Source of the DNA: an uncultured Cytophagales bacterium | GTDB taxonomy: Bacteria > Bacteroidota > Bacteroidia > Cytophagales > UBA9547 | NCBI GenBank assembly: GCA_945957555.1 | Contig: CAMFLX010000028.1 | Location: 1 to 39,462, forward strand | Direction of reading: 5' to 3' | DNA: 39,462 bases | Shown here: one piece after another, positions 1 to 20,480 of the stretch | Layout of the letters: each line of letters opens with the position of its first letter | Numbering within the stretch: the stretch's first letter is position 1 | The notes under the pieces: generated by a model | Databases searched by the model: none | The model's input: only the letters and a program-made list of their open reading frames with translations | Told to the model about the DNA's origin: nothing | Translations under genes and position numbers: made by a program

Positions 1-149
1 GTATAGGCATCCAACCATTCCAAAATTGGGTTGTAAAACTGAGCGCAATCTTCAGGTAGCGATCTCCCTGATATCTCGTATATACCGTTCTCTGGGTCCA
101 AGATTATTTTTGGCGTATCTTCCGTTCCTTCGAGATTTATTTTTTTCAT
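1..149 (-). CDS. SiaC-family (DUF1987) regulatory phosphoprotein, C-terminus beyond window
   Basis: The first 49 residues can be read before the window ends. They start MKKINLEGTEDTPKIILDP and continue with a GIYEISGRSLPED segment, which is the conserved N-terminus of the DUF1987/SiaC family. In Pseudomonas SiaC is a small protein that is phosphorylated by the SiaB kinase, dephosphorylated by the SiaA SpoIIE/PP2C phosphatase, and in its unphosphorylated form activates the diguanylate cyclase SiaD. Here the gene is the last visible one of a minus-strand operon, 19 nt after the SiaB-like gene, so the kinase-substrate pairing is strongly implied. Whether a diguanylate cyclase or another target gene follows cannot be seen. 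The family call is firm; the downstream target is inference. Confidence 0.88.
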   Translation of the reverse strand, partial: MKKINLEGTEDTPKIILDPENGIYEISGRSLPEDCAQFYNPILEWLDAY

Positions 150-168
150 TTTATTAATAATTTTGTGT

Positions 169-741
169 TTAAGCTTCTTTTACCCTTAATATTTTTGTTT
201 GAAAACTAAAGAATGATATGGTCTCATCAATCTTACTGAATGTATAATCCAGTTTCTGACCAGACTTCCTTGCCATATCTATAAACCCTAATCCTGCTCC
301 GCCTTTGTCTGAAAGCTCGGAAGTAGAAAGGGCAGTTTTGTAAAGTTCCTTCAATCCATCTTTATCAAGAGCGTTGATCTCGTCTAATTTAGCTTTAAGT
401 TTATCAACTCTATCGTTGTAAATTACGTTCCCTGTAGCGATCCTGTATTCATTGTTCTCCTTACCGATCATAAAGATCGCAGTATTGAATACTGTATTTT
501 CTGGTCCGAACTCCTCAGAGTGCTTACAGATGTTTTGTAAACATTCTACCATGACATTAAACACTTTCTTCTTGATGTTGGTGTCCTCGTGTAGGGTTTC
601 CATGTTTTTCTCGGCCATCGCAAGCACCGATTTGGTGATTTCTTGCGTGAACTCTCCTTCATAAACCAAGATGATCTTATGACCAATCATCATGTTATGG
701 AGGTCGTAAATGTGCTCTAGTGAGTTTTCTGTTTTTGTCAT
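169..741 (-). CDS. SiaB-family protein kinase (GHKL-like fold)
   Basis: A 190-aa protein of the SiaB/DUF6272 family, the cognate kinase of SiaC-like proteins. A GHKL-type ATP site is suggested by the N-box-like segment NVMVECLQNICKHS (about residues 62-75) and the glycine-rich segment SDKGGAGLGFIDMARKSG (about 142-160). The rest of a histidine kinase is absent, as expected for the family, which phosphorylates Ser/Thr on its partner. The ATG start is clear, 31 nt downstream of the SpoIIE phosphatase gene and 19 nt upstream of the SiaC gene, so kinase, phosphatase and substrate are co-transcribed. The family call rests on motif pattern and gene order; the exact substrate residue is not visible. 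Confidence 0.85.
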   Translation of the reverse strand: MTKTENSLEHIYDLHNMMIGHKIILVYEGEFTQEITKSVLAMAEKNMETLHEDTNIKKKVFNVMVECLQNICKHSEEFGPENTVFNTAIFMIGKENNEYRIATGNVIYNDRVDKLKAKLDEINALDKDGLKELYKTALSTSELSDKGGAGLGFIDMARKSGQKLDYTFSKIDETISFFSFQTKILRVKEA

Positions 742-772
742 GTGAATCAGAACAATAAGTTACATTTAATTA

Positions 773-3487
773 TTATATTTTGAACGCAATCAGTAATACG
801 TCATCCATTTGCTTGTAGTTGCCCTTCCATGTCTCAAAATAATCTTCAAACGCATGAAATTGCTTATCAAAATCAGTAACACTCTTATTATCAAGTATTA
901 ATTGTTTTATTTTAGAAGGTCCAATCTTTTTATTATCTGGACCACCAAACTGGTCTGGATAGCCATCAGAACAGAAATAGAACGCATCCCCTTTCTTATA
1001 GTCAATGTGATGATTTGTAAAATTGGTTTGATTTTTGAAAATCCCACCACCAATAGGAAATTTATCTCCTTTAAACTCCAACACCTCTCCATTCCTAAGT
1101 AAATATAGTGGCCTGTGCGCTCCTGCGTATTGCAGTATGCCCTTCTTTTTGTTGATCCGACACAGACATATATCCATACCATCTTTCATCTCATTTCCTT
1201 CCATATCCTGCTTAAGGGTAGAAGTAACGCCTGCATCTAGCATGTCCAAAATAACCCCAGGCTCTGTAATCTTCTGACTCTTGACAATATCGTTGAGAAG
1301 GAAGTATCCAATCAGTGATAACATAGCTCCTGGCACACCATGACCCGTACAATCCACTGCAGCAATATAGATGTCATCACCTGACTCAACAAACCAAGGG
1401 AAATCACCACTTACCACATCTCGAGGTTTATAGAAGAGGAAGAACTCAGGAAAGAGCTGCTTGATTCTCGCATAATCTGGAAGTATGGCCACTTGAATCC
1501 TTTTCGCATAGTTGATACTCTCAGTAATCTTCTTGTTTTTATTTTGGATCTCTAGTTCTGTCTTTTTACGTTCTGTGACATCACTAGAAACCAATAAGAT
1601 AGACTCGATTTCACGTCCTTCTCCAAATTCAGGAATGGCATTAACACTCATGACAAGGCTACCGCTATCATTGGTTGGAAACTGCATCTCCACCTGCACC
1701 TTTTCCTTGTTATCGATTACCTCTTTAATAAGACCTTTCCATGATGTTTTGATGGCATCATCGAGCACCGTATCTTCAATATTTTTTTGCAAATACTGTA
1801 CTGGTTTTGCGGAGGTAAGTCTCTCAATAGTTGGATTGATATAAAAAATCTTCCCCTCATTGTTCAGCCTAGTGATCAAATCCGGAGAATTTTCCGAGAG
1901 CGATTGCATTTGTGAACGCATACGTGCTTCTTTTTCTGCTTCTTTTCTAGCAGATATATCTCTCACATTGAGCACTATACCAGCAATAGCCGGTTCTGCC
2001 AACATGTTCTTGATAGCACTATCTGTGTAAATAAAATCACCATTTTTCTTTTGAATCCTTAGTTCTGCATTCAGCGTTAAACCTTGGCTATCTGAAACTT
2101 CCTCTAGTATGTAATCAAGTTCCTTCACATCTTCAGGGTGTAGGTAGGCCTTGATATTTTGTGCATCTAATATCTCGTCGGTAGTATATCCCAAAATCTT
2201 CGAAATCGATGGGCTTACATAGAAACAGTTCGCTTTTTGGTCTACCACCATAATGATCTCCGAAGAGTTTTCCAAGAGTGCCTGTGTCTTTTTCTGAGAC
2301 TTGTTCACTTCTTCAATTTGGATATTAAGCTTATGGTTACTTCTTTGCAACTCTTCTTGGGTAGCTTGCATTTCTTCAGCATTTTGTTGCAGTGCCATTG
2401 ACTGTTCTTTGAGTTCGGCTCCCATCCTTTGAGACTCTGAGAGTAAACTACTGGTGCGCTCGTTTACCTGAAGGTTAAATATGGTCTGGGCAATGATCTC
2501 GCTTACTTCTCTTACAATCTCTACCTCCATCTCATCAAACTTCCTAACGGAGGCAAATTCCAAAAGACCATATATTTTCTCATTGGTAATAAGTGGCATA
2601 ATCAATAAACACTTAGGACGATTCTCTCCAATGAGACCAGATGTAATAGATACGTAATCATTAGGAATCTCTACCCGAAATACCATATCCATTTCTATAG
2701 CTGACTGCCCAACGAGACCCTCTCCAAATTTAAACGTCTTCTTGGCATACTTTTTCTTATTGTACGCATATAAATTGAGCAATTTTATATAAGGAGTACC
2801 AGCCCTTTCATCTTCTTCAATAATATAGAATGCTCCTTGAATTGCTTTTATCTTATTACAAAGGTATTTCAAAAGATCATCCCCCATATTATCAAGATGA
2901 TTATGTGAACGTAATATATTACTGATTTCAGCGTTACATACTACAATTTTGTTTCTCGCCTCGTCTTTTAAGGAGGCAGTGATCAAGTTATCTCTCATGT
3001 TGAGCAATGCATGACCTAAGGCATCACTCTTACTTAATGGCTTATAGTTTGCATCTAGCTCTCCTTGACCAATTTTCACTGCAAAATGAGCTGTCTCATT
3101 TAAGTTCGAAACCATGGTTTCTAGACCTAAAACCATATCGCCCATTTCGTCATTGGGTACATCTTCGATACTTATTTTAGGTGTTTCACCTTTTGAAAGC
3201 TTGTCTACAATAAAGTTTAGTGTAGATAGATTTTTGATGATAATCTTTGACAAATACAGAAGTAATATAAAACAAACTACCATGAATGCCACCCCAAATA
3301 TCATGGTTTTGAACATCATTTGTTCCAGTACACCCTGAATATAGCTTTCATTGTGTGTATTGTTTTTTAAGGCATCTTTGACATGCAAAATCTCCGACAC
3401 GTTTAATATCGCATATATTAATATGGGCATCAGTATGATAACAAGCCCTATTAATATTTTTATTTTTATCGTTAATCTCAGTTTCAT
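773..3487 (-). CDS. Membrane HAMP-GAF-PAS-PAS-SpoIIE (PP2C-type) phosphatase, SiaA-like
   Basis: A 904-aa inner-membrane sensor phosphatase. Visible parts in order: TM1 (about 8-30), a very short extracytoplasmic loop, TM2 (60-82), a HAMP-like linker (83-140), GAF (180-345), coiled coil (350-402), PAS (403-518), PAS (525-643), and a SpoIIE/PP2C phosphatase domain (650-904). Metal-binding acidic residues are present: D695 in VSGDF, D712 in VDCTGHGVPGA, D841 in CSDGY, and D895/D896 near the C-terminus. The usual GDFYW motif reads GDFPW here, a small departure next to the metal site. By analogy with SiaA it should dephosphorylate the SiaC-like protein in response to a signal sensed by the GAF/PAS domains. 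The small periplasmic loop suggests intracellular or membrane sensing. It starts 7 nt after the upstream GAF gene. Confidence 0.87.
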   Translation of the reverse strand: MKLRLTIKIKILIGLVIILMPILIYAILNVSEILHVKDALKNNTHNESYIQGVLEQMMFKTMIFGVAFMVVCFILLLYLSKIIIKNLSTLNFIVDKLSKGETPKISIEDVPNDEMGDMVLGLETMVSNLNETAHFAVKIGQGELDANYKPLSKSDALGHALLNMRDNLITASLKDEARNKIVVCNAEISNILRSHNHLDNMGDDLLKYLCNKIKAIQGAFYIIEEDERAGTPYIKLLNLYAYNKKKYAKKTFKFGEGLVGQSAIEMDMVFRVEIPNDYVSITSGLIGENRPKCLLIMPLITNEKIYGLLEFASVRKFDEMEVEIVREVSEIIAQTIFNLQVNERTSSLLSESQRMGAELKEQSMALQQNAEEMQATQEELQRSNHKLNIQIEEVNKSQKKTQALLENSSEIIMVVDQKANCFYVSPSISKILGYTTDEILDAQNIKAYLHPEDVKELDYILEEVSDSQGLTLNAELRIQKKNGDFIYTDSAIKNMLAEPAIAGIVLNVRDISARKEAEKEARMRSQMQSLSENSPDLITRLNNEGKIFYINPTIERLTSAKPVQYLQKNIEDTVLDDAIKTSWKGLIKEVIDNKEKVQVEMQFPTNDSGSLVMSVNAIPEFGEGREIESILLVSSDVTERKKTELEIQNKNKKITESINYAKRIQVAILPDYARIKQLFPEFFLFYKPRDVVSGDFPWFVESGDDIYIAAVDCTGHGVPGAMLSLIGYFLLNDIVKSQKITEPGVILDMLDAGVTSTLKQDMEGNEMKDGMDICLCRINKKKGILQYAGAHRPLYLLRNGEVLEFKGDKFPIGGGIFKNQTNFTNHHIDYKKGDAFYFCSDGYPDQFGGPDNKKIGPSKIKQLILDNKSVTDFDKQFHAFEDYFETWKGNYKQMDDVLLIAFKI

Positions 3488-3494
3488 AGCAAGC

Positions 3495-4280
3495 TTACAT
3501 TAATATGTTTGAAAATACTGTTTGTGAGATCTGATATATAGTTTGAACTTCCTTAGTATTCAAAGCACCAAAGCCTGAAACTTCTATGAGTCCAATAACT
3601 TCATTTTTTGGATTTTTAATAGGCACGATCAGTAATAGTGTTGGATTACTCTCCCCTAGCCCAGAAATAACTTTAAGGTAATTGTCGGGGACATCATCAA
3701 TAAATATAGGCTCTCCTGAATAAGCCACCTGACCATTGATACCTACACCGACTTCAAATCGATTGATCCTGCTCAAATCACCGATATATGCAAATGTTGT
3801 CAAGAGTTCGAAGGTTGATTCTTCGGCACCTGAAGCTCTTTTGTAGACTAGTCCCTGTGAGAGTGACAATTCGTTACAGAAAGCCCAAAGTGCCTTTTCT
3901 ACTTTTTGTGCAGCAAGGGTTTCTTTTTCTACTTTTGAAAAAATCTTTGATTGGATAAGCTCTATCTTATCCTGATAACGATTATGAATTTCTTCCTCAA
4001 TAATTTCTTGCGTCGTCTTATTAAGACTAGCAAGTTCATCTTGCTTCACTATCATGGTTTCTTTAGCTTCATACACAGAGAAGAGTAGATAAATCAAAGC
4101 ATAGAACAATGGTAACATAAACACAACGACCAGTATGAAGGGGTTTGAGATTCTGTACACCCACAAGTCTACGTGATAGTTCTTGTCAAACGCCAAAGAA
4201 TCCAAAACCAGCTTGGTAAAAACGAGTATCGATGCTGCGGCTAGCAACAGGTAAATGATAATATGGATATATCTCTTCAT
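3495..4280 (-). CDS. Membrane-anchored GAF-domain protein
   Basis: A 261-aa protein with two N-terminal membrane segments (about 5-24 and 48-70), a charged coiled-coil stretch (75-120) and a C-terminal GAF domain (125-261). There is no output domain. The GAF core (GINGQVAYSGEPIFIDDVPD, then ISGLGESNP) clearly resembles the GAF domains of the downstream SpoIIE phosphatase and the divergent sensor at 6035-7543. It probably acts as a sensory partner or scaffold for the phosphatase, inferred from the 7-nt spacing and shared architecture. The ATG start lies 23 nt after cheB. Confidence 0.75.
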   Translation of the reverse strand: MKRYIHIIIYLLLAAASILVFTKLVLDSLAFDKNYHVDLWVYRISNPFILVVVFMLPLFYALIYLLFSVYEAKETMIVKQDELASLNKTTQEIIEEEIHNRYQDKIELIQSKIFSKVEKETLAAQKVEKALWAFCNELSLSQGLVYKRASGAEESTFELLTTFAYIGDLSRINRFEVGVGINGQVAYSGEPIFIDDVPDNYLKVISGLGESNPTLLLIVPIKNPKNEVIGLIEVSGFGALNTKEVQTIYQISQTVFSNILM

Positions 4281-4303
4281 AATTTATAAAATTCAATCTT
4301 TTC

Positions 4304-4894
4304 TCATACCAAAGAATTTAATACTTTGATAATATCGCTTGTATGTAAAATCATATCAACCTGAGTTGCCTTGATCGCAGCAGTGGGCATTGTATCAATC
4401 GTACATTCACTTGGCTCTTGTACAATTGCAAACCCTCCTCTATCCTTCAGTCTTTTCATTCCCCAAGCACCGTCTTTGTTTGCACCTGTTAGCATAATAC
4501 CCAAGGTCTTATTTTTATACACATAAGAAGCTGAATCAAACGTAACATCTATTGCTGGCCTAGAATTATTGATCATCTCTTCTGTGGAAAGGGCTATTTT
4601 GTAACCAAGCTCCACACTCATGTGATAATTAGACGGAGCCAAGTATACTATGCCCCTTTTAATGCTTTCTTTATCGTCTGGTTCTACTATGTTGAGTTTC
4701 GATTTTAACATGAGTGCTTCTACGAAACCATTACGTACATGTTTTAACCTGTGTAATGCCATAAAAATTGGCAAATCAAACCCAGGATTAATTTCTGCTA
4801 ATATCTTTGTTACCACCTGAAAACTTCCCGCCGAACCCCCAATTACTACCGCCTTAAACCTTGATTTGTCAATATTTAAATTCTGCAAACTCAT
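4304..4894 (-). CDS. cheB: CheB-type methylesterase domain protein without receiver
   Basis: A 196-aa stand-alone CheB catalytic domain (protein-glutamate methylesterase/deamidase). The catalytic triad is visible as S21 in VIGGSAGS, H48 in FMALHRL and D141 in LTGANKDGAWG. The family segment VYLAPSNYHM and the C-terminal MPTAAIKA are also present. Canonical CheB has an N-terminal response-regulator receiver of about 120 residues; here the protein begins directly at the esterase, so phosphorylation by CheA is not the control. It follows cheR by 34 nt. No chemoreceptor, CheA or CheW gene is in the window, so the methylated substrate is unknown. Enzyme class is certain; chemotaxis function is doubtful. 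Confidence 0.87.
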   Translation of the reverse strand: MSLQNLNIDKSRFKAVVIGGSAGSFQVVTKILAEINPGFDLPIFMALHRLKHVRNGFVEALMLKSKLNIVEPDDKESIKRGIVYLAPSNYHMSVELGYKIALSTEEMINNSRPAIDVTFDSASYVYKNKTLGIMLTGANKDGAWGMKRLKDRGGFAIVQEPSECTIDTMPTAAIKATQVDMILHTSDIIKVLNSLV

Positions 4895-4928
4895 TCTAAA
4901 AATTAATCACGAGGTATATATTGTATTG

Positions 4929-5759
4929 TTATTCCTTCACTTTTTTAAATATTTTTTCTTCTTGATTTATGGTGATGAATTTACCAGCAATCTCACTCCA
5001 TATCAAGGTTTCCTTAGAACCGATGATAAAATAGCTATAGTTGAATAGACTTTCGTGAAAGAGCTTGAAGACTTCATTTTGAAGCTGTTGATTAAAGTAG
5101 ATCATTACATTGCGACAAAGGATAAGGTCAAACTTGTTGAAGATTCCAGATTTCACTAAGTCATGGGTTCTATAGGTAACATTAGATACCAAGGAGGTAT
5201 CCATATGTGCAACACCATGTTCCTCTTTATAATAATCGGAGAGTTTACCCGTACCCCCATAACGAATGTAGTTTTTTTCGTTTACTTCAAACATGTTCTT
5301 CATGTTGTATTTGGGAGCTTTGGCTTTCGCTAAAATATTTTCGTCGATATCGGTTGCCCAAATCTTGACGTTGTCTAACCAGCCGTTTTCTTTTAATAAT
5401 ATACACATTGAGTATACTTCCTCTCCAGATGAGCACCCTGCATGCCAAATCTTTATTGTTTCTTGAGTAGAAAACAAATTGGGCAACACTTTGTCTCTTA
5501 TATCCCTCCAGAGAGAAGGGTCTCTGAACATCTCCGTAACATTTACGGTAAGTTCATTCATAAATGTTTTAAAAAAAGCTGGATCAGTTTTGATCTTCTC
5601 AATGAGCACCGTCATATTAGGTACCTTGAACAACTCTAAAAATCTTATAACCCTTCTTTTAAATGATGAAATAGCATAGTTATTAAAATCGTATTTGTAC
5701 TTCTCCTGTATTACTTGGCATAAGGTGCGCAATTCACCAATTTCGATATCTTCAATCAT
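4929..5759 (-). CDS. cheR: CheR-type protein-glutamate O-methyltransferase
   Basis: A 276-aa SAM-dependent methyltransferase of the CheR family and the first gene of the signalling operon. The N-terminal helical domain carries NELTVNVTEMFRDP (the NxTxFFRD-type motif), followed by the SAM-binding HAGCSSGEEVYSM segment, WATDIDENILAKA, and the LILCRNVMIYFN motif. I chose the ATG at 5759 (MIEDIEIGELRTL). An in-frame TTG 21 nt upstream would add MFKNILF, which does not belong to the family N-terminus. Expected reaction: methylation of receptor-type glutamates, reversed by the adjacent CheB. No receptor gene is present. Confidence 0.88.
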   Translation of the reverse strand: MIEDIEIGELRTLCQVIQEKYKYDFNNYAISSFKRRVIRFLELFKVPNMTVLIEKIKTDPAFFKTFMNELTVNVTEMFRDPSLWRDIRDKVLPNLFSTQETIKIWHAGCSSGEEVYSMCILLKENGWLDNVKIWATDIDENILAKAKAPKYNMKNMFEVNEKNYIRYGGTGKLSDYYKEEHGVAHMDTSLVSNVTYRTHDLVKSGIFNKFDLILCRNVMIYFNQQLQNEVFKLFHESLFNYSYFIIGSKETLIWSEIAGKFITINQEEKIFKKVKE

Positions 5760-6034
5760 GAACAAGATATTTTTAAACAAAGATCATATACGGAGAATAC
5801 GCACTGAAAGGTTATAGCTTTGATCCAATAAAGAAAATAAAATTCAATTTAGAATTGATAAAAATTATTAGCGAAACCATATCCTATCTTTTGTCTAAAT
5901 ACATTCATTTTATTCTTACAAAAGAAGATATTATGTGTTTAACAGTGACATCAAATCTCAAAAATGAAATGAAACCGCTAGCATTATAAAAGCGTAATAC
6001 CAGGTTATCAAGTCACTAATAAAATTTATCCGCA

Positions 6035-7543
6035 ATGACAACTATTCTTTTATTGACAATTTTATTGGCCGTTTCTATAGCCACATCTATATTTCTCTTC
6101 TTCAAACAAAGATTAATTGTCAAAGACCGTTTATTAGCGGTACAGAAATATCAAGAGCTTGAAAAAAACCTGGAAACCAATATCAGTCATGCAAAACAAA
6201 TTGCTTCTGGCGATTATAGCGTGATCAATGCCATCGGTATAGATGATGAACTAGGAAAATCGTTGGTTGAAATGAGTACCAACCTCAAATCGGCTGAAAT
6301 AGAAGATGGTAAAAGAAGCTGGTCCATGGCTGGGCTTACCAAATTGGCCGAAATCATTCGTGTGTCCAACCACGACCTAGTGGGCCTCTCTAACAATCTT
6401 ATTGTTTTTTTAGTCAAATATTTAGACGCTAACCAAGGTGGGTTATTTGTACTTGACGACTCTAATCCTGAACAAAAATTTCTGGAACTTAAGGCTTGTT
6501 ATGCGTATGAAAGAAAAAAATTCTTAGAGAAAAGAATAGCACTCGATGAAGGCCTACTCGGACAATCCGTTCAGGAAAATGACACCATATATTTGACAGA
6601 CATTCCTCAAGATTATATGAGTATTACTTCTGGGCTAGGTACGGGCAATCCCAGCTCATTGATCATAGTACCACTCAAAACAGAAGAAAGTGTGGTTGGT
6701 GCTTTGGAGATTGCAAGCTTCAAAGTTTTTGAAGCACACGAAAGGGAATTTTTGGAGAAAGCATCCGAAAGTATTGCTTCTTCTATATTAACCTCTAGAA
6801 TTAACGAAAACACCAGTAGATTACTGCGAGAGTCTCAAGACTTAACAGAACAACTTAGGCAACAGGAGGAAGAGGTGCGCCAGAACATGGAGGAGCTGCA
6901 AGCTACTCAAGACGAAATGCTTCGTAAAGAAAAGGAAATCAACAGACTACTTCTGGAATCTCGCAAAAACGAGCAACTTCTAGAGGAGAAAATGAAAGAG
7001 AATAATCGCTTAGAAGAAGAAAACAAAATAAAAACGGAAAAGATGCTCAAAGAAATTGAGCATAACAGGAAGATCATGACGCTGGTCATGAACAAACTGC
7101 CCCAAAAGATATTTCTTAAAAATGAAGAAGGCAGGTTCCTACTTTTAAATGAATCAGTAGCCAACGACCTAAATAAAACCATTGACGAACTTATAGGCAA
7201 AAACGACTTTGATTTATTCTCTAAGGAAGATGCTACCAAATTCTGGAAAGCTGAGAAGGAAGAGGTTCTTGACAAATTGAATAAAATAGCAAATTACGAA
7301 GATTTTGAAGTGGATGGGGTAAGAAAATACTTTTATACCGTAAAGATGCCCTTTAAATTCCCAGATTCTGACATACATGGCATCTTGGGCTATCAGTCGG
7401 ACATCACAGAACTTAAAAACCTTGAGAATAGGATTAAGGATGCTGAAATTGAAACACAAAGAAAAGAAAATGAAATGCGTGAAGAACTCGTTGCAAAACA
7501 AATGCTCATTAATGAATTGCAGAGCAAACTGAACAAAAAATAA
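6035..7543 (+). CDS. Membrane-anchored HAMP-GAF-PAS coiled-coil sensor protein
   Basis: A 502-aa protein transcribed divergently from cheR. It has one N-terminal membrane segment (about 2-22), a HAMP-like stretch (25-100), a GAF domain (105-260), a long charged coiled coil (262-350), a PAS domain (352-465) and a short C-terminal coiled coil. The GAF core (DEGLLGQSVQENDTIYLTDI, then DYMSITSGLG) and the following coil (QNMEELQATQDEM) closely match the SpoIIE phosphatase at 773-3487, so the two share ancestry. There is no kinase, cyclase or phosphatase output. The long coils rich in Glu/Gln could offer methylation sites for the neighbouring CheR/CheB, which is inference. A strong terminator follows. 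Confidence 0.8.
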   Translation: MTTILLLTILLAVSIATSIFLFFKQRLIVKDRLLAVQKYQELEKNLETNISHAKQIASGDYSVINAIGIDDELGKSLVEMSTNLKSAEIEDGKRSWSMAGLTKLAEIIRVSNHDLVGLSNNLIVFLVKYLDANQGGLFVLDDSNPEQKFLELKACYAYERKKFLEKRIALDEGLLGQSVQENDTIYLTDIPQDYMSITSGLGTGNPSSLIIVPLKTEESVVGALEIASFKVFEAHEREFLEKASESIASSILTSRINENTSRLLRESQDLTEQLRQQEEEVRQNMEELQATQDEMLRKEKEINRLLLESRKNEQLLEEKMKENNRLEEENKIKTEKMLKEIEHNRKIMTLVMNKLPQKIFLKNEEGRFLLLNESVANDLNKTIDELIGKNDFDLFSKEDATKFWKAEKEEVLDKLNKIANYEDFEVDGVRKYFYTVKMPFKFPDSDIHGILGYQSDITELKNLENRIKDAEIETQRKENEMREELVAKQMLINELQSKLNKK

Positions 7544-11411: not shown

Positions 11412-12947
11412 TCAATTAATCTTCCCCCACTCTTCCTCAAAGTAACGCACCAGTGCTTGGTTGTTCAATTGGTTCACCTCTACCTTACGTCGTTGCATGT
11501 CTTTGGTGAAATGACACATGGCTGCAAATGCGTCGGAACTATAATATTGCAGTGAATCGGGCAACACACCCAATTTGGGCAAAGCCCCTTTATATGCCAT
11601 GATATAGCCCCAATCGCCAAAAGCTGGTACAAAAGTATGATAGGGAAGCGTCTGAAAACCCGCCTTGATCAAAGTTGCCTCTACACACCAATAAGACTTG
11701 GGTGCGACTAATGGCGAAGTTGATTGGATCACCACCACACCTCCATCACTCAACATCTGAAAGAGTTTTCTATAGAAAGTGAGGCTGTAGAGCTTACCCA
11801 CCGAAAAATTTGAAGGATCTGGAAAATCGATAATGAAGGCATTAAAAGTTTTCTTTTGGTCCAAGAGCCAAATAAAGGCATCCTGATTCAACACTTCAAT
11901 GTTGGGATTATTGAATACGTTTTTATTCAAAGGTGTCAGCAAAGGATGTGACTTAAAAAGCTGTGTTACTTCAGGATCCAAATCCACCAAATATACTTTC
12001 TTCACATCTTTATATTTGAATACTTCCCTTGCGGCCAAGCCATCTCCTCCCCCTAAAATCACTATAGTATCCCTATTATTCAAAGAACTCATGAGGGGAT
12101 GGACCAAGGATTCGTGGTAGCGGTACTCGTCTACTGAAGAAAACTGCAAGTTGTTATTGAGAAACAGACGTACGTCATTCTTATGTTTGGTGAGCACGAT
12201 CCTTTGATAAGGGCTCGATTTGGAATAAATAACTTTGTCGTGGTACGAAAGTTCCTCTGCAAAATTCTGGATCTTATTAGCAAAGGCAAAGGCGAGCACT
12301 AACACTGCTATCACTATAAACCCAATGGTTTTGAGCCATTGAATCTTGTGATTTTTCTCGGTAAGCGTGTAGCACACCCAAAGTGCTACGCCAGCATTGA
12401 GCAAGCCAAAAAACAAAGAGGTGCGAATGAGCCCAATGTGAGGAACAAAAAAGAGCGGGAAGATTAGGGAGGCGAGCAGTGCCCCTATGTAGTCAAAAGT
12501 AAAAATCTCCGAGACCAAATCGCTGAAGCTGAAGCGATCCTTAAGCATGCGCATGAGTAGCGGAATCTCCAAACCCACGAGTAAGCCCGTTAAAAACACC
12601 AAGGCGTATAAAATGAGCCTGAAGTAAGCCACTTGCTCAAACAATACAAAAAGCAAAGCCGAAGAGAAGCCCCCTACGAGGGCAATCATGAGCTCTATCT
12701 GTATAAATCGTACAAACAAATGAGTATTGATATACCGCGAAAGGTACGAGCCCACTCCCATAGCAAAAAGATAGGTGCCGATGATGGTCGAAAACTGCGT
12801 TACAGAATCTCCCAATACATAACTGGCCAAGGTACCTGCAACCAATTCATAAATAAGGCCACAGGTAGCAATGACAAACACCGAAAGCAACAGCAATGCG
12901 GGCTTCGCAAAACCCTGCTGTTGTGTCTCTTCCCTACTACTATCCAT
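11412..12947 (-). CDS. speE: Membrane-fused polyamine aminopropyltransferase (spermidine synthase-like)
   Basis: A 511-aa two-part protein. Residues 1 to about 220 form some seven membrane segments; the C-terminal half is a spermidine-synthase fold. The cofactor motif ILGGGDGLAAREVFKYKDVK, the acidic VYLVDLDPEV strand end and the catalytic FIIDFPDPSNFSVGKLYS segment are intact, so aminopropyl transfer from decarboxylated AdoMet is chemically plausible. AdoMet decarboxylase is encoded at the head of the same operon. The membrane domain suggests the acceptor is membrane-associated or that the product is made at the membrane. I start at the ATG at 12947 (MDSSREETQQ), which overlaps the DUF350 stop by 8 nt; an in-frame TTG at 12962 is less likely. 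The acceptor amine is unknown. Confidence 0.85.
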   Translation of the reverse strand: MDSSREETQQQGFAKPALLLLSVFVIATCGLIYELVAGTLASYVLGDSVTQFSTIIGTYLFAMGVGSYLSRYINTHLFVRFIQIELMIALVGGFSSALLFVLFEQVAYFRLILYALVFLTGLLVGLEIPLLMRMLKDRFSFSDLVSEIFTFDYIGALLASLIFPLFFVPHIGLIRTSLFFGLLNAGVALWVCYTLTEKNHKIQWLKTIGFIVIAVLVLAFAFANKIQNFAEELSYHDKVIYSKSSPYQRIVLTKHKNDVRLFLNNNLQFSSVDEYRYHESLVHPLMSSLNNRDTIVILGGGDGLAAREVFKYKDVKKVYLVDLDPEVTQLFKSHPLLTPLNKNVFNNPNIEVLNQDAFIWLLDQKKTFNAFIIDFPDPSNFSVGKLYSLTFYRKLFQMLSDGGVVVIQSTSPLVAPKSYWCVEATLIKAGFQTLPYHTFVPAFGDWGYIMAYKGALPKLGVLPDSLQYYSSDAFAAMCHFTKDMQRRKVEVNQLNNQALVRYFEEEWGKIN

Positions 12948-13158
12948 GTATGGCTGATGCAATGATGATGGCGATTGCCAACATAAATGCCGACAACATG
13001 ATAGCCAAGGCCACGTTTTTATTCACCAGAATCTCCTTGTACAGGTTTTCAGGGGTTACTTTTTCTATCACCCAAAAAGAAAACACTAAAATAATGATAC
13101 CAATAAAGGAGTAAACGATTGACGCCGTTATGTACTTGATGTTGAGTAAATGTTCCAT
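12940..13158 (-). CDS. DUF350-family small membrane protein
   Basis: A 72-aa protein starting MEHLLNIKYITASIVYSFIG with two membrane segments (about 10-33 and 48-70) joined by a charged loop containing ENLYKEILVNKNVALA. This is one DUF350 unit, roughly half the length of E. coli YjfL, which has two such units. I use the ATG at 13158, since the upstream extension is unlike the family. DUF350 genes are known to sit beside DUF4178 and spermidine-synthase-like genes, as here. Function is unknown; a membrane-stress or channel-like role has been guessed for the family. It overlaps the aminopropyltransferase start by 8 nt. Confidence 0.78.
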   Translation of the reverse strand: MEHLLNIKYITASIVYSFIGIIILVFSFWVIEKVTPENLYKEILVNKNVALAIMLSAFMLAIAIIIASAIHG

Positions 13159-13180
13159 TGTATTTCTTTTAAAAAATTTA

Positions 13181-13327
13181 TTATTTGTGAGACTGTCCTT
13201 GCGATTCTGGCGACCATTTCTCAGACTGAGAACCAAAATACCTCATGCCCAACAAATTGCTGATGGCAAAAAACACCAGCAGTACCACCAAAAATATCAA
13301 ATAGTATTTTCCTTGTTTTATTTCCAT
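13181..13327 (-). CDS. 48-aa single-pass membrane protein
   Basis: A short protein beginning MEIKQGKYYLIFLVVLL with one strong membrane segment (about 8-27) and a hydrophilic tail ending SQGQSHK. It starts 1 nt after the DUF4178 stop and ends 22 nt before the DUF350 start, so its place in the operon argues that it is real. An alternative ATG at 13339 (MELDMEIK) would overlap the upstream gene by 11 nt. I do not recognise the family. Such tiny genes are easily missed; it may be a subunit of the membrane complex formed by its neighbours. Confidence 0.62.
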   Translation of the reverse strand: MEIKQGKYYLIFLVVLLVFFAISNLLGMRYFGSQSEKWSPESQGQSHK

Positions 13328-13328
13328 A

Positions 13329-14612
13329 TCAAGCTCCATATTCACTGTTGCCCCATCTGCTACTTTCCCGAGTACTTTTTCTGATCCACACATAGATAGG
13401 ATATACCAGTATGAGCAATATGACCATCACATAATTACTCGTAATCGCCGTGTTTTGATCTATGGCCACATTGTACAAAGCCACTTTAGGCGTAGGCCTC
13501 ACTCCAAAACTAGTAGTAGATTCCGTATGTGGGGTTATACTTAGTTTATAGGTACCATCGGGCACCATAGAAAGGATCTTGTCTTGAGAACGACTACCTT
13601 CGCTCCAGTTTTCGCCACCTTCATAGCCGTGATAGTACTCCATGCCTACTTCAGCATTATATTCATCATCGGTGGTCTGGTTGATGAGATTGACCTCTGC
13701 TTCTAACCAGGTATTGTCCAGTGGTGCATCGAGCGTAATCCGTAAGGAGCTATAGCCCAAGGCACTGTTGAGTTTGAAGTCATTAGACACAAAAGTTTTG
13801 TAAGATTCTGGCTTACCAGGTAAGGTGTCCACAGAGAGCGCCTCGTTAAACACTCGCTCTGAGGGCGTAATCATCATTTGCAGGAAGAGTACCAAAGCAA
13901 TACCTATGATGAACCCTATGGTATACTTCCACACCCAGGTGGCTTTTTCTATATAAGGGTTGGGCTGATTGCTGTACACGCCTACCGGACTAGCAGTTTT
14001 CACCGACAAACTCGCTTTGAATGCAGCTTTAAGCGCATCGGGACTTAAATAGGTCGCTTGGTGCCATTCCACCTTGCCATCGTTTTCTTCCCTTAGGATA
14101 CTATGCGGTGGTGCTATGTATTCAGAAACTTTGTTGTCTTTCTTAGGGATCAGGTTCCAAGTAAATTCTCCCTCCGCCGCCGCATAAAACATGTCGTACT
14201 TTGAGAACAGATCATATTTTACGCCTTCGTAGGTGTAGTTACTTCCTTTTGCTTTAGGCGCAGATATGGGCCTTACTATGTTCCAATGACCGCTGTATTC
14301 ACTGAGGGTGAGGTAGCCATGGTCTTGGTTATACAGGATGTATTCGTTCCAGAAATAGAAGGTGTTGACCTCCTTGCCGATCAAAAGGCCTACCACTACA
14401 TAATCTATGTTATCAAACTTACCTACAGAACCAATAGGGATCCTTGCAGACATTTCTTTTACAAAGTCCCCCTCTATCCTGATTACATGGCTTTTGTCAG
14501 AAAAATAGGTACGACAGCTCCCACAGCTAAAATACTGCGCTCTCGCACCCGTGTATCTGGGCATTCTGTGCTTGCACTTGGGGCAAATAACTTCGCTTTG
14601 AGGATATATCAT
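13329..14612 (-). CDS. DUF4178 membrane protein with N-terminal zinc ribbon
   Basis: A 427-aa protein. The N-terminus has a zinc ribbon of two CxxC pairs (CPKC near residue 10 and CGSC near 30). A DUF4178-type beta domain follows (about 50-200, with GSVGKFDNIDYVVVG and LTLSEYSGHWNIVRPI). There is a membrane segment at about 228-247, a beta-rich probably extracytoplasmic region (260-390) and a final membrane segment (about 397-417) with a basic tail. DUF4178 proteins are known companions of polyamine-type genes and DUF350, but no molecular function is established. It lies 11 nt after a smaller protein with the same ribbon layout. Two membrane segments place the C-terminal beta region outside the cytoplasm if the ribbon is inside. 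Confidence 0.8.
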   Translation of the reverse strand: MIYPQSEVICPKCKHRMPRYTGARAQYFSCGSCRTYFSDKSHVIRIEGDFVKEMSARIPIGSVGKFDNIDYVVVGLLIGKEVNTFYFWNEYILYNQDHGYLTLSEYSGHWNIVRPISAPKAKGSNYTYEGVKYDLFSKYDMFYAAAEGEFTWNLIPKKDNKVSEYIAPPHSILREENDGKVEWHQATYLSPDALKAAFKASLSVKTASPVGVYSNQPNPYIEKATWVWKYTIGFIIGIALVLFLQMMITPSERVFNEALSVDTLPGKPESYKTFVSNDFKLNSALGYSSLRITLDAPLDNTWLEAEVNLINQTTDDEYNAEVGMEYYHGYEGGENWSEGSRSQDKILSMVPDGTYKLSITPHTESTTSFGVRPTPKVALYNVAIDQNTAITSNYVMVILLILVYPIYVWIRKSTRESSRWGNSEYGA

Positions 14613-14623
14613 ATTCGGTACAG

Positions 14624-15214
14624 CTAGCGCAAAATACTAATAATTTCGTTAAAAGTAATGTCCATTCCTGTGAAAAATATTTGTGCGCCTTGTGCATCCT
14701 GATGGATGATGAGTATTTGCTTGTCATTGCTACACTCTATGGAGCTAAATTCAGAGAAATAGGTATCAAAATCGGGCAATTCGCCTTCCATACTATAGCC
14801 CAAGGCTTGGTGAATGGCATCCACCGAATAGCTGACACCCTCATGGGTTACCGTGTCTTCAACCTCCAGATCTTTGGGGAAACGCCCAGCCACTGAAGGC
14901 ATCAACATAAAGTAATGACCCATAGACTCACAAATCCACAAATGCTTGCCTTCAAAACACAGAGGCCATTTGTTCAAATATCCCTCTGTATAAAAGTAAC
15001 GCAAGCGTCCTGTAACTATGCCTTGGGTCTTTTTGAGGGATACTGTTTTATGGATCAGATCCAAACAGTATTCATCAGGCACGGGCTCAGGTTTGTACAA
15101 ACTTTTATCTAAGGGATCTAATGACACTACATAGCCGCACTGTTCACATACTTTCGCGATCGTGAAATGGTATCGAAACAAGAGGTGATTGCCACAATTT
15201 CTACAATGTGCCAT
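14624..15214 (-). CDS. Small zinc-ribbon/DUF4178-like protein
   Basis: A 196-aa soluble protein beginning MAHCRNCGNHLLFRY, with CRNC and CEQC pairs forming a zinc ribbon in the first 27 residues, followed by a beta-rich region. The order of elements (ribbon, GIVTGRLRYFYTEGYLNKW, LWICESMGHYFMLMP, VEDTVTHEGVSYSVDAI) parallels the DUF4178 part of the next gene, so it looks like a soluble paralogue or partner without membrane segments. It sits 3 nt after the AdoMet decarboxylase gene and 11 nt before the membrane DUF4178 gene. Function unknown. Confidence 0.7.
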   Translation of the reverse strand: MAHCRNCGNHLLFRYHFTIAKVCEQCGYVVSLDPLDKSLYKPEPVPDEYCLDLIHKTVSLKKTQGIVTGRLRYFYTEGYLNKWPLCFEGKHLWICESMGHYFMLMPSVAGRFPKDLEVEDTVTHEGVSYSVDAIHQALGYSMEGELPDFDTYFSEFSSIECSNDKQILIIHQDAQGAQIFFTGMDITFNEIISILR

Positions 15215-15217
15215 CTT

Positions 15218-15583
15218 TTATCGCTTCAGTTCAGTTTTGGTATATTTTGAACACTCAAAGTACTTTACGCAGTCCTCAAAAAATGCCTGCGCTTTTCCGT
15301 CATTCACCTGTTCGTAATTAGACAAATACACGTCCAAAGTAAGATAACCAAACTCTGGCCAAGTATGTAGCGATATGTGCGACTCCGTAAGGCATACAAT
15401 ACCTGTATAGCCGCTATGTGCGCCAAAACTATGGTAGTGATCGCCGAGTTTGTGTAAACCATAGTGTACAATGCGACCGTCTATGAAGGTACGTACTGCT
15501 TCCACAGCAATCAGTAAATGTTCAGAAGAGGTATGGAGTTCTCCGAGTACGTGTAATCCAGGTTGATATGGTGTTGGTGTCAT
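15218..15583 (-). CDS. speD: S-adenosylmethionine decarboxylase proenzyme
   Basis: A 121-aa short (Thermotoga/Bacillus SpeH-type) AdoMet decarboxylase. The self-cleavage motif CLTESHISLHTWPEFGYLTL is intact: cleavage between E67 and S68 would make the pyruvoyl group on the alpha chain. It produces decarboxylated AdoMet, the aminopropyl donor. I use the ATG at 15583 (MTPTPYQPGLHVLGEL), which matches the family N-terminus; the open frame extends further upstream but is AT-rich and unlike the family. It leads an operon ending near 8565 whose sixth gene is an aminopropyltransferase. A possible -7 box lies 22-29 nt upstream. Confidence 0.92.
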   Translation of the reverse strand: MTPTPYQPGLHVLGELHTSSEHLLIAVEAVRTFIDGRIVHYGLHKLGDHYHSFGAHSGYTGIVCLTESHISLHTWPEFGYLTLDVYLSNYEQVNDGKAQAFFEDCVKYFECSKYTKTELKR

Positions 15584-15604
15584 AGTACTGTTTCTGTGTT
15601 CACA

Positions 15605-15612
15605 CAAAAATA
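15605..15612 (-). promoter_or_regulatory. Possible -7 box for the speD operon
   Basis: On the minus strand the sequence is TATTTTTG, matching TAnnTTTG, and would give a leader of about 15-20 nt before speD. No TTG/TTTG -33 element is found at the usual spacing, so this is tentative. Confidence 0.35.
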
Positions 15613-15691
15613 TATTATTTTTTTTAATTTGATGAATTCCCAAGCAAAAACCTCTTAAAATCGCAGGATTCAAAGGATTGAATATTCTTGT

Positions 15692-17160: not shown

Positions 17161-19080
17161 ATGGAACTACTCTACGTCTGGATAGACGAATACAAAAACA
17201 TCTCCAAACAAGGCATTAATTTTTCTCCTGAGTTTCACTTTACTTATGATCATGAAAAGGATGAACTTGACTTTGAGAAAATAGATGGATTACCTAAGGA
17301 CTTTTGGGGCGAGAATGTAATGAATCTTACCCTATTGTTGGGGAAAAATGGAGCAGGGAAAACATCGATACTTGAATATTTGTACAAGCCTTATTTAAAG
17401 CCCATTTTTATATTCAGAGAAAATCTTAACAGTGATAGCTTACTAATATACAAAAACGCTAATTACCTGAAATCAACAAAGATCAATGAAATAGGCACCA
17501 ATACAGGATTTAAAATTCATTATGATAGACCTAGCTCTTCTAAGTTTGAAGATTATTTCGATGGTATGTGTCGTGTCTATTATAATCCAATATTTCGCGG
17601 CGATGGTCGGAAAATTGACCAATATTTGCAACAATCTGCCAGTCGTAGTAATGGTATTGAATTACCTCATTTCGATATCTCACAAGATGTCTTACTTTAT
17701 AAAAGTATTTTGGACGATAAAAATCCTCCCATAAACGCAAATAATTTGTTCCATAAATATAACAAGAGTGAGACATGTGGACATTTGATGTTTCTGAGAT
17801 TGGATGAAAAATTCTTCAGTATGATTTTTCATAGTGGAACTCCTAGTATTGAAATTTCAAAAAGATATAAATATTTAAAGGTTTATCAATTAAATGCTGA
17901 TGTTGTGGAGACATTTGATAGACTATTAGCGAGAAAAAAAGCTATGGCTGAAGATAACCATAGTAATAAAACTTCAAAGAGCAAGAACACTTTGATAAAT
18001 CTGTTTTTTACCAATTGTATGATTGGACATATTATTGAACTCACTGATCTAATATCTACTGTAGATTTTCATCATGAAAAGGTAACTTATCTTGAGGAAT
18101 ATTGCTCTAATCCAGATTTTGAAGATATTAACAATTTCGATTTAGTGGCCTGTTATCATGGATTATTAAAATTATTCGATAAATATATTAACCATTTTAA
18201 TGACGAACGCTTAAGATCTCATTTCAATTCTGTTAAAGAAAAAATAGAAACAATAGATATACCATCTTACATCAAAAAAATTAGTTTAAAATATGTAGAT
18301 TATATCGAAACAGGAAATGGAGATGTAATCATTTATAGACCTAATAATTTTAAAGAATTTAAAGAATTCGAGCCTCTACAATGGTTTGACACATTGGATT
18401 ATTCTAGTAGCAATGTATCAATATTTGACTTTAGATGGACAGGATTGAGTAATGGTCAATTATTTCGGCTTACTTTATTTGGAAGGATATATAACAATAT
18501 TCGATATGCCCTATTAGCAGAAAGACATATTCACACAATTTTATTTTGTTTAGATGAAGGTGAAACCACCCTTCATCCCCATTGGCAAAAACAATATATC
18601 AAATGGATCACTGAATACATCCGTATGATGTTTCCTGAGAAAAAGATTCAGTTTATACTTGCCACCAACAACCCCATCATTGCTTCCGATGTACCCAGTA
18701 GTAATATTATAAAATTAAAACCCGATGAAAAAAGTAATGCAAGGGTTGTAGAAACAAATTCAAAAACTTTCGGGGCCAATATTTATGATTTATTAAAAGA
18801 TGACTTCTTTATAGAAGATGGCTTTATGGGCGAATTCGCAAAAACCAAAATTGACGAAACCATAAGTTGGCTAAATAATACCTCCAGAGATTTGTCCAAA
18901 TCCAATGATATCTTAAGGATTATAAACACTATTGGAGAACGCTTTATTTATCAAAAACTACTAGAAAAATACGAAGAAGTTACTGGTCAAAACGCTAGGC
19001 TATTAACTATTCAAAGAAAAATAAAAGAACTTCAAGAAGAAGAACTGAAATTAAAACTTCAAAAAAGAAATAATCTATGA
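17161..19080 (+). CDS. ptuA: Septu-like (PtuA-type) AAA/ABC-class ATPase
   Basis: A 639-aa ATPase of the OLD/ABC-like AAA class. Walker A is LLLGKNGAGKTSILEYL (near residue 61). Walker B is ILFCLDEGETTLHPHW (near 461-475), preceded by a signature-like RWTGLSNGQLFRLTLFG segment and followed by FILATNNPIIASDVPSSN. The stretch between the Walker motifs is long and not recognisable. The C-terminus is a charged coil (EELKLKLQKR). The downstream HNH nuclease gene overlaps by 4 nt (ATGA), the arrangement of Septu systems in which PtuA binds PtuB and nucleotide controls the nuclease. No reverse transcriptase is nearby, so this is not a retron. A related but unnamed ATPase-HNH pair is possible. Confidence 0.8.
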   Translation: MELLYVWIDEYKNISKQGINFSPEFHFTYDHEKDELDFEKIDGLPKDFWGENVMNLTLLLGKNGAGKTSILEYLYKPYLKPIFIFRENLNSDSLLIYKNANYLKSTKINEIGTNTGFKIHYDRPSSSKFEDYFDGMCRVYYNPIFRGDGRKIDQYLQQSASRSNGIELPHFDISQDVLLYKSILDDKNPPINANNLFHKYNKSETCGHLMFLRLDEKFFSMIFHSGTPSIEISKRYKYLKVYQLNADVVETFDRLLARKKAMAEDNHSNKTSKSKNTLINLFFTNCMIGHIIELTDLISTVDFHHEKVTYLEEYCSNPDFEDINNFDLVACYHGLLKLFDKYINHFNDERLRSHFNSVKEKIETIDIPSYIKKISLKYVDYIETGNGDVIIYRPNNFKEFKEFEPLQWFDTLDYSSSNVSIFDFRWTGLSNGQLFRLTLFGRIYNNIRYALLAERHIHTILFCLDEGETTLHPHWQKQYIKWITEYIRMMFPEKKIQFILATNNPIIASDVPSSNIIKLKPDEKSNARVVETNSKTFGANIYDLLKDDFFIEDGFMGEFAKTKIDETISWLNNTSRDLSKSNDILRIINTIGERFIYQKLLEKYEEVTGQNARLLTIQRKIKELQEEELKLKLQKRNNL

Positions 19081-19979
19081 TTTATTTGCCACATCCCTCC
19101 ATTGAAACTCTAGATGAGTTCCAAAAGATTATTTTACCCAAGGTAAAGTCACGTTTAGAGAAAGCAAAACGACATAATAGGCATCTAAAAGATTATTTTG
19201 AAGATGAAAAAATTAAAGAAATATTATTAAGTAAACCAAGGGAGCTAGAAAAACTTAGTGTAACCATATATGATTTATTTAGAAGTAAAACAAGTTTAAA
19301 ATCTTTAGGAGAGATTTTTGATTATAAATCAATTATTTCGGAAAGCCAATCCACATCTTATAAAATAGCAAGTTTAATGAATAGAAATACTTGTACTTAT
19401 TGCAATAGGAATTACACCTTGACAGTAATAAAAAATAGACACAAAAAGAAACACAATAATTCTGACAGAATTGCGAGACCACAATTTGATCACTGGTTCC
19501 CTCAAAGCAAATATCCAATTTTAGCACTCTCATACTTTAACTTAATACCAAGTTGTTCCATGTGTAATACCACCTTAAAAGGTACTATAGAATTTAACAC
19601 AAAAGACTATGTTCACCCCTATATTGATGAAAAAGAAACTTACAGTTTTGATTTTTTTTATGATAGTACGAATGAATTAAAAGTAACAGTAGAAGTGGTA
19701 AAAGATTCCAAAATGGATAAAACTTTAAAGGTTTTTGAAATAGAAGAAATCTATAATGCTCATAGTAATTTGGAATTAAAAGATTTAATCGACTTACGTC
19801 AAAAATATTCAACAAACTACATAGAATCCATTACAGATATCTTTAAGAACGAACATATTGGAAAAGATGACATTTTAAGAATGGTTTTTGGAATAGAATC
19901 AAATATTGATAATTATCACAAAAGAACTATGAATAAGTTCAAAATTGACATTTTGAAAGTATTGGGGGTTGAAATATAA
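19077..19979 (+). CDS. ptuB: Septu-like (PtuB-type) HNH endonuclease
   Basis: A 300-aa HNH nuclease. The zinc-binding CxxC pairs are C106/C109 (CTYCNRNYT) and C159/C162 (CSMCN). Between them lies the beta-beta-alpha core with H139 in PQFDHWFPQSKYP and N154 in SYFNLIPSC. Catalytic and metal-binding residues are thus present. The N-terminal 100 residues are helical and the C-terminal part charged, possibly for ATPase binding. The gene starts inside the ATPase stop codon, which implies coupled translation. Expected role: nuclease effector against phage DNA, by analogy with Septu. GC is visibly lower than in neighbouring housekeeping genes, which fits horizontal transfer. Inference: antiphage function; the nuclease fold itself is clear. 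Confidence 0.82.
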   Translation: MIYLPHPSIETLDEFQKIILPKVKSRLEKAKRHNRHLKDYFEDEKIKEILLSKPRELEKLSVTIYDLFRSKTSLKSLGEIFDYKSIISESQSTSYKIASLMNRNTCTYCNRNYTLTVIKNRHKKKHNNSDRIARPQFDHWFPQSKYPILALSYFNLIPSCSMCNTTLKGTIEFNTKDYVHPYIDEKETYSFDFFYDSTNELKVTVEVVKDSKMDKTLKVFEIEEIYNAHSNLELKDLIDLRQKYSTNYIESITDIFKNEHIGKDDILRMVFGIESNIDNYHKRTMNKFKIDILKVLGVEI

Positions 19980-20023: not shown

Positions 20024-20480
20024 AATTGTAAGTGAATTTGATTGAGACTAGTCACCCGTAACTTTACAAACGACTACTCTCGTTTGGGACTAGTCACCCG
20101 TAACTTTACAAACGACCACTCTCGTTTGAGACTAGTCATACGTAACTTTACAACCCACTACTCTCGTTTGGGACTAGTCTCCTGCAACTTTACAAACGAC
20201 CACTCTCGTTTCGGACTAGTCATCCGCAACTTTATAACCTACCACTCTCATTTGAGACTAGTCATCCGCAACTTTACAACCTACTACTCTCGTTTCGGAC
20301 TAGTCATCCGCAACTTTACAACCTACTACTCTCGTTTGGGACTAGTCACCCGTAACTTTACAACCTACTACTCTCGTTTTGGACTAGTCACCTGCAACTT
20401 TACAAACGACTACTCTCATTTCGGACTAGTCATCCGCAACTTTACAAACGACTACTCTCATTTGGGACTAGTCGCTGGAC
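20024..20480. repeat. 42-bp tandem repeat array with 19-bp leader
   Basis: After the leader AATTGTAAGTGAATTTGAT (20024-20042) come ten full 42-bp units and a diverged eleventh. Each unit carries the 8-bp palindrome GACTAGTC or a near variant, then a CGTAACTTTACAA/CGCAACTTTACAA block and ACTCTCGTTT/ACTCTCATTT. In several units CAAACGA and TCGTTTG form a 7-bp stem. Units differ by scattered substitutions only, with no unique spacers. This fills the 554-bp gap between the Septu-like pair and the T9SS cargo gene. Confidence 0.92.

Follow-up and report, generated by a model that had tools for sequence, protein, structure and literature searches.

The window analysed here is the entire 39,462-nucleotide contig C28 of the host genome (G000), that of an uncultured Cytophagales bacterium, and it opens with a series of closely spaced minus-strand genes headed by cheR. 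This gene (4929-5759, minus strand) encodes a stand-alone CheR methyltransferase composed of CheR_N and CheR domains (PF01739; CheR, 143 bits). Its start was assigned to the ATG at 5759, with an in-frame TTG farther upstream at 5780. The nearest solved relative is the B. subtilis CheR (5ftw, E 1e-29), and the SAM motif HAGCSSGEE as well as the arginines of the substrate helix are invariant in 11 orthologues. Next comes cheB (4304-4894, minus strand), which codes for a methylesterase domain alone (PF01339, 162 bits), no receiver domain being detected in this protein by domain profile search. Residues S21, H48 and D141 align with the CheB catalytic triad and are invariant among orthologues; structure matches were 3sft and 1chd. 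The catalytic and substrate roles of these conserved CheR and CheB residues are well established in both families and, judged by alignment, the active-site residues of the two enzymes are intact.

The third gene (3495-4280, minus strand; GAF_2, PF13185) encodes a membrane-anchored GAF protein, here termed TM-GAF, in which two hydrophobic helices, judged by eye, precede a coil and the GAF domain. It is followed by the gene for a TM-GAF-coil-PAS-PAS-SpoIIE (PP2C) phosphatase (773-3487, minus strand; PF07228, PAS, GAF), the C-terminus of which is SiaA-like and matches the PP2C domain of SiaA (6k4e, E 2.4e-36). The last two genes are siaB (169-741, minus strand), coding for a SiaB-family kinase (NF038262, 176 bits at a cut-off of 85) that matches the SiaB structure 6kko (E 4.6e-11), and the N-terminal part of siaC (1-149, minus strand; PF09345, 51 bits over profile positions 1-44 of 120), which ends at the contig edge. 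From cheR to siaC the genes are separated by 34, 23, 7, 31 and 19 bp, and gaps of 7-34 bp make a single transcript likely. A sequence-only reading of this DNA had recognised SiaC-like, SiaB-like and SpoIIE-type genes behind CheR and CheB, and profile matches placed all of them there on the minus strand. Its remark that no receptor, CheA, CheW or CheY is present holds for the operon; the genome has a separate MCP/CheA/CheW/CheY operon on contig C78. Upstream of cheR, a divergent gene (6035-7543, plus strand; PF13185 and PAS) encodes a GAF-coil-PAS sensor with no recognised output domain.

The Sia genes and their surroundings

The locus provides a SiaC with a conserved threonine, a SiaB-family kinase and a SiaA-like PP2C phosphatase, the three components by which a Sia-type switch was recognised. 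Scores against the equivalog models of the Pseudomonas SiaABCD system stayed below the cut-offs for both SiaA (191 of 700 bits) and SiaB (90 of 225 bits), while the cut-off of the SiaB family was passed, so the locus is classified as a Sia-type switch and not as SiaABCD itself. The missing half of SiaC was found at the beginning of contig C151 of the same genome, the ends of the two contigs overlapping by 9 bp. The joined frame gives an in-frame SiaC of 121 amino acids with an FNTASS site that aligns with all orthologues, the phosphorylation site in P. aeruginosa being T68 (PMC7647112). Both genes that follow siaC on C151 are the same as in intact relatives (L059, L145). It is the reading frame and the conserved order that make the join credible, as a 9-base overlap is weak by itself.

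The product of the gene next to siaC combines a helical domain at its N-terminus with an FHA-like domain and an ABC-2 transporter. The FHA-like assignment comes from Foldseek and is weak (best E 0.036), with nearly all top matches being FHA domains. A GGDEF effector had been expected beyond position 1, and this expectation has to be given up: the neighbour encodes an ABC transporter instead, which rules out a GGDEF/SiaD diguanylate cyclase next to siaC. FHA domains bind phosphothreonine and, in view of this property and of its position, the transporter is the most likely output and probably the effector of SiaC. An ABC transporter follows siaC in 15 of 29 orthologous loci examined; relatives L060, L061 and L064 have other genes in its place.

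Conservation of the gene order was surveyed using a window-type CheR, defined by an E-value below 1e-80, which 33 of 59 relatives encode. Among the 29 loci, cheR and cheB stand together in 28, cheR-cheB-GAF with TM-GAF as the third gene in 24, and the complete series cheR-cheB-GAF-SpoIIE-siaB-siaC is contiguous in 19 loci from many genera. The survey that the earlier reading had called for thus yielded an order conserved far beyond chance, and an arrangement peculiar to one genome is ruled out. Contig ends truncate several of the incomplete loci (L023, L063, L069 and that of the window itself), and one (L068) was counted as incomplete because antisense frames confused the calling of open reading frames; genuine rearrangements of the operon occur in L040, L042, L046 and L072. 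Genome G343 has a second siaB-siaC copy, located behind cheR, and cheB-GAF-SpoIIE-siaB-siaC at another place (L123, L277, L278). As a separate observation, Sia-type switches are greatly expanded in one relative (G054, family f15), which has 42 SiaC matches where other relatives with SiaC have 1-19.

Other parts of the window hold features of their own. At 17161-19979, an AAA ATPase gene overlaps an HNH-type gene; the best PADLOC matches of this pair are to the candidate defence pair PDC-M62A/B, followed by weaker matches to Septu PtuA/PtuB. A tandem array in which a unit of 42 bp is repeated in 10.3 copies with 88% matches (20042-20473) adjoins the defence-like pair. The cluster at 11412-15673 includes genes that, as judged by eye from their translations, resemble those for S-adenosylmethionine decarboxylase and for spermidine synthase, the latter coding for a membrane protein.

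A coiled-coil motif and its carriers

A coiled-coil motif, AQEEEMRQNMEELQATQEEM, combines glutamate pairs seven residues apart with an exact match to the methylation consensus of methyl-accepting chemotaxis proteins (MCPs), Glu-Glu-x-x-Ala-Thr. In the operon it is found as a candidate methylation helix in the GAF-PAS linker of the SpoIIE protein (2300-2431, minus strand; E 1.7e-17 with the motif model A3, which has 44 columns), where QNAEEMQATQEEL holds an exact EE-x-x-A-T site. A second copy lies in the divergent neighbour gene (6836-6964; E 1.6e-15, model A3), and both the host MCP (C78) and a GAF-PilJ protein encoded on C151 have kindred segments. TM-GAF does not contain the motif. The earlier proposal that methylation tunes the phosphatase or its membrane partner is therefore borne out in part: the phosphatase linker offers an exact site, but TM-GAF has none, and in several lineages (L070, L071, L075 and L062) the SpoIIE site is degenerate while the receptors keep exact motifs.

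Genomes with the motif contain 2-37 copies (model A3). When 77 copies were aligned on the core, glutamate or glutamine occupied heptad positions b and c across three successive heptads, and Ala-Thr occupied positions f and g after the middle Glu/Gln pair. The exact EExxA[S/T] was present in 68 of 79 copies, and three pairs at seven-residue spacing likewise in 68 of 79, compared to 0.17% of random windows. The conservation of the core in these figures is inflated, since the copies were found, and hence selected, by the motif model; that the b and c positions are fixed, in contrast to the variable e positions, remains informative despite this selection. The coiled coil was read from the heptad pattern only. 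Both the consensus and the seven-residue spacing match Tsr and FrzCD, the MCP methylation consensus used for comparison being taken from PMC1079850. A literature search found no heptad description of methylation helices.

A census of 56 motif proteins, operon phosphatases excluded, revealed GAF domains in 54 and PAS domains in at least 37, HAMP in 11, Cache-type sensors in about 10, PilJ, 4HB_MCP, CHASE3 or MASE6 in a few and SpoIIE in 2. Histidine kinase, receiver, GGDEF and MCP signalling domains were all absent from the 25 most frequent of 30 domain families, so that the motif proteins look, by their domain content, like receptors without an output. Some have two to five motif copies, the extra ones sitting between PAS domains. 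Most share a paralogous GAF-coil module, and part of the motif conservation is thus due to common descent. At three other loci (L146, L149 and L040), a motif receptor adjoins the cheR operon or sits inside it. The most consistent candidate methyl-acceptors are these genome-wide GAF/PAS sensors, mostly without an output domain and including the neighbour at 6035-7543. The acceptors would likely form a receptor family of which the phosphatase is one member in many species.

Co-occurrence of CheR and the motif

Presence of the motif follows that of the window-type CheR. It was found in 32 of 33 relatives with this enzyme and in none of the 26 without, in 96 of 97 versus 11 of 194 among 291 genomes of the order (Fisher p 4e-63, ignoring phylogeny) and, in a phylum-wide sample, in 4 of 4 genomes with it versus three marginal single hits in 243 without. 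The 1e-80 cut-off was placed at a gap in the scores of the 59 relatives once their results were known, ahead of the search through the order; independent of this choice are only the counts for the order, whose set includes the 59, and for the phylum. Families f1, f9, f16 and f20 hold both states, and CheR and motif covary in each of them apart from the exceptions named below. Two broader associations were ruled out: ten genomes with SiaC and without a window-type CheR lack the motif, and so do genomes with only other types of CheR, those that neighbour hybrid kinases.

Of the 11 exceptions in the order, four, all of genus g181, have a CheR that narrowly misses the cut-off and that adjoins Sia genes in the one genome checked (G343), and another (G344) has a diverged cheR-cheB-GAF locus. 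The remaining six genomes are incomplete (75-92%), and in five of them (G350, G362, G371, G389 and G433, 81-92% complete) no CheR was found. The sole genome with a window-type CheR and no motif, G011, has cheR-cheB alone, with no adjacent GAF or SpoIIE genes. As the motif co-occurs with the operon as a whole, co-occurrence by itself does not single out CheR from its operon mates.

This leaves room for a different explanation, in which the motif is a docking or coiled-coil segment that assembles the sensors with SpoIIE or TM-GAF, the link to CheR reflects the shared operon and CheR and CheB act elsewhere. The motif is indeed common to phosphatase and sensors, the entire operon co-occurs with it, and in G011, where cheR-cheB has no adjacent GAF or SpoIIE, it is absent. 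This is countered by the lineages with a decayed SpoIIE motif, which nevertheless keep exact receptor motifs, by the conserved face, which consists of acidic pairs and A-T as in the MCP methylation consensus, and by a genome without CheR. In this genome, G025, which is 99% complete, a search for CheR at E 0.001 found no match. G025 encodes TM-GAF and SpoIIE side by side with a GAF receptor, a group not preceded by cheR or cheB, and has two further GAF receptors, three in total; their GAF domains align well with those of motif receptors, yet the motif is eroded. EExxA[S/T] occurs in none of the four linkers (KEEELKHSQIAMEEAQQKM, EQEDSTLKKLQELESAKQIA, AQEEETRKNVEELRVTQEES and QKELQENALKMAASQEEIQ), two of which retain three acidic/amide pairs, and motif scores drop from around 47 bits to around 16 or less. 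In this one lineage the partners persist without an intact motif, which is thus apparently not maintained by the partnership of sensors and phosphatase alone. Docking is on balance an unlikely explanation.

A narrower alternative, in which CheR and CheB chiefly modify TM-GAF itself or the coil of the phosphatase for local adaptation, the rest of the motif proteins being unrelated paralogues, would fit the position of TM-GAF after cheB in 24 of the 29 loci and the site in the SpoIIE linker. It is improbable in view of the missing motif in TM-GAF and of the several lineages in which the SpoIIE motif has degenerated and orphan receptors keep theirs. That the operon enzymes mainly modify true MCPs elsewhere and are merely co-expressed with the Sia switch is very improbable and largely contradicted: the host MCP in its separate Che operon does carry the motif, but this operon has a CheR and a CheB of its own, and, among the 33 relatives that have the window-type CheR, 16 gave no match to an MCP signalling domain and three more gave sub-cut-off matches only.

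The same counts indicate that CheR and CheB do not serve chemoreceptors only, the outcome named beforehand as fatal to the earlier reading, and a window-type CheR devoted to MCPs is ruled out for the MCP-free genomes. Nor does the operon qualify as a chemotaxis pathway: it encodes no MCP, CheW, CheA or CheY, and an MCP is not found in every genome with a window-type CheR. The host Che operon on C78 (L004, 1777-11322) comprises a PAS-HAMP-MCP with the motif, CheW, CheY, CheB, CheA, a 206-aa protein, CheR, a SpoIIE phosphatase and SiaC. Since it ends in SpoIIE and SiaC, this genome may have two Sia switches under chemosensory control, in different architectures, and the C78 operon may represent a second, CheA-based coupling. 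A third host CheR is encoded beside a CHASE3-GAF hybrid histidine kinase on contig C12 (L005, 3932-8280). The coil of this kinase, QQEELRQSNEELEEQ, has glutamate pairs seven apart and no A-T. Among the matches listed in a search of genome contigs, most were other CheR types, and the pairing of CheR with hybrid kinases recurs in many phyla; it may have a methylation motif of its own.

A possible adaptation step and related systems

The reading favoured here, to which we assign a probability of about 0.6, is that of a Sia-type partner switch equipped with its own adaptation enzymes, which would act on the motif-bearing sensors. Sensors with Cache, HAMP, GAF and PAS domains, and often the SpoIIE phosphatase, would present a coil, one face of which bears a glutamate pair every seven residues. 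These glutamates would be methylated by CheR and demethylated by CheB, as on methylation helix 1 of MCPs, and methylation would shift the sensor output until adapted. The sensors may act on the SpoIIE phosphatase directly or through TM-GAF, a coupling suggested by the shared motif and by gene linkage. By opposing SiaB, the phosphatase would set the phosphorylation of the SiaC threonine, and the effector under the control of SiaC would probably be the FHA-like ABC transporter encoded downstream.

A more far-reaching idea, to be taken as tentative and with slightly less than even odds, is a class of non-MCP receptors: up to tens of output-less GAF/PAS/Cache sensors per genome could be adapted by CheR and CheB through the shared coil and feed a PP2C phosphatase and SiaC instead of CheA and CheY, a chemotaxis-like pathway without the chemotaxis parts. 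As far as found, the substrates of CheR and CheB in genomes with few or no chemoreceptors had not been established, and a specific candidate motif with its carriers can now be named. If true, receptor methylation would be tied to a protein-phosphatase switch, and a role is suggested for a large set of sensors without a recognised output domain. The results suggest a use of adaptation by methylation beyond chemotaxis. The arrangement was not described in the literature searched, a weak negative given that the search took in few subscription journals.

Like SiaABC(D) of P. aeruginosa, the operon combines in consecutive genes a PP2C phosphatase domain, a SiaB kinase and a SiaC with a conserved threonine site. 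It differs in the sensor half, which is TM-GAF-PAS-PAS here, in the cheR-cheB head and in the gene after siaC, which encodes an FHA-like ABC transporter here and a diguanylate cyclase there. Wsp-type chemosensory systems also use CheR and CheB to feed a non-motility output, but their MCP, CheW and CheA analogues and GGDEF regulator are all missing from the operon described here. The hybrid histidine kinase systems, as on C12, likewise place CheR/CheB beside a non-MCP sensor, but their CheR is of another type (around 42-46% identical), their output is a kinase and their coil motif differs. Adaptation by CheR and CheB in E. coli Tsr and M. xanthus FrzCD/FrzF shares with the present system the two enzymes and the glutamate pairs seven apart, whereas the candidate acceptors here are GAF/PAS sensors without an MCP signalling domain, the operon is free of CheA, CheW and CheY, and its CheB consists of the methylesterase domain without a receiver.
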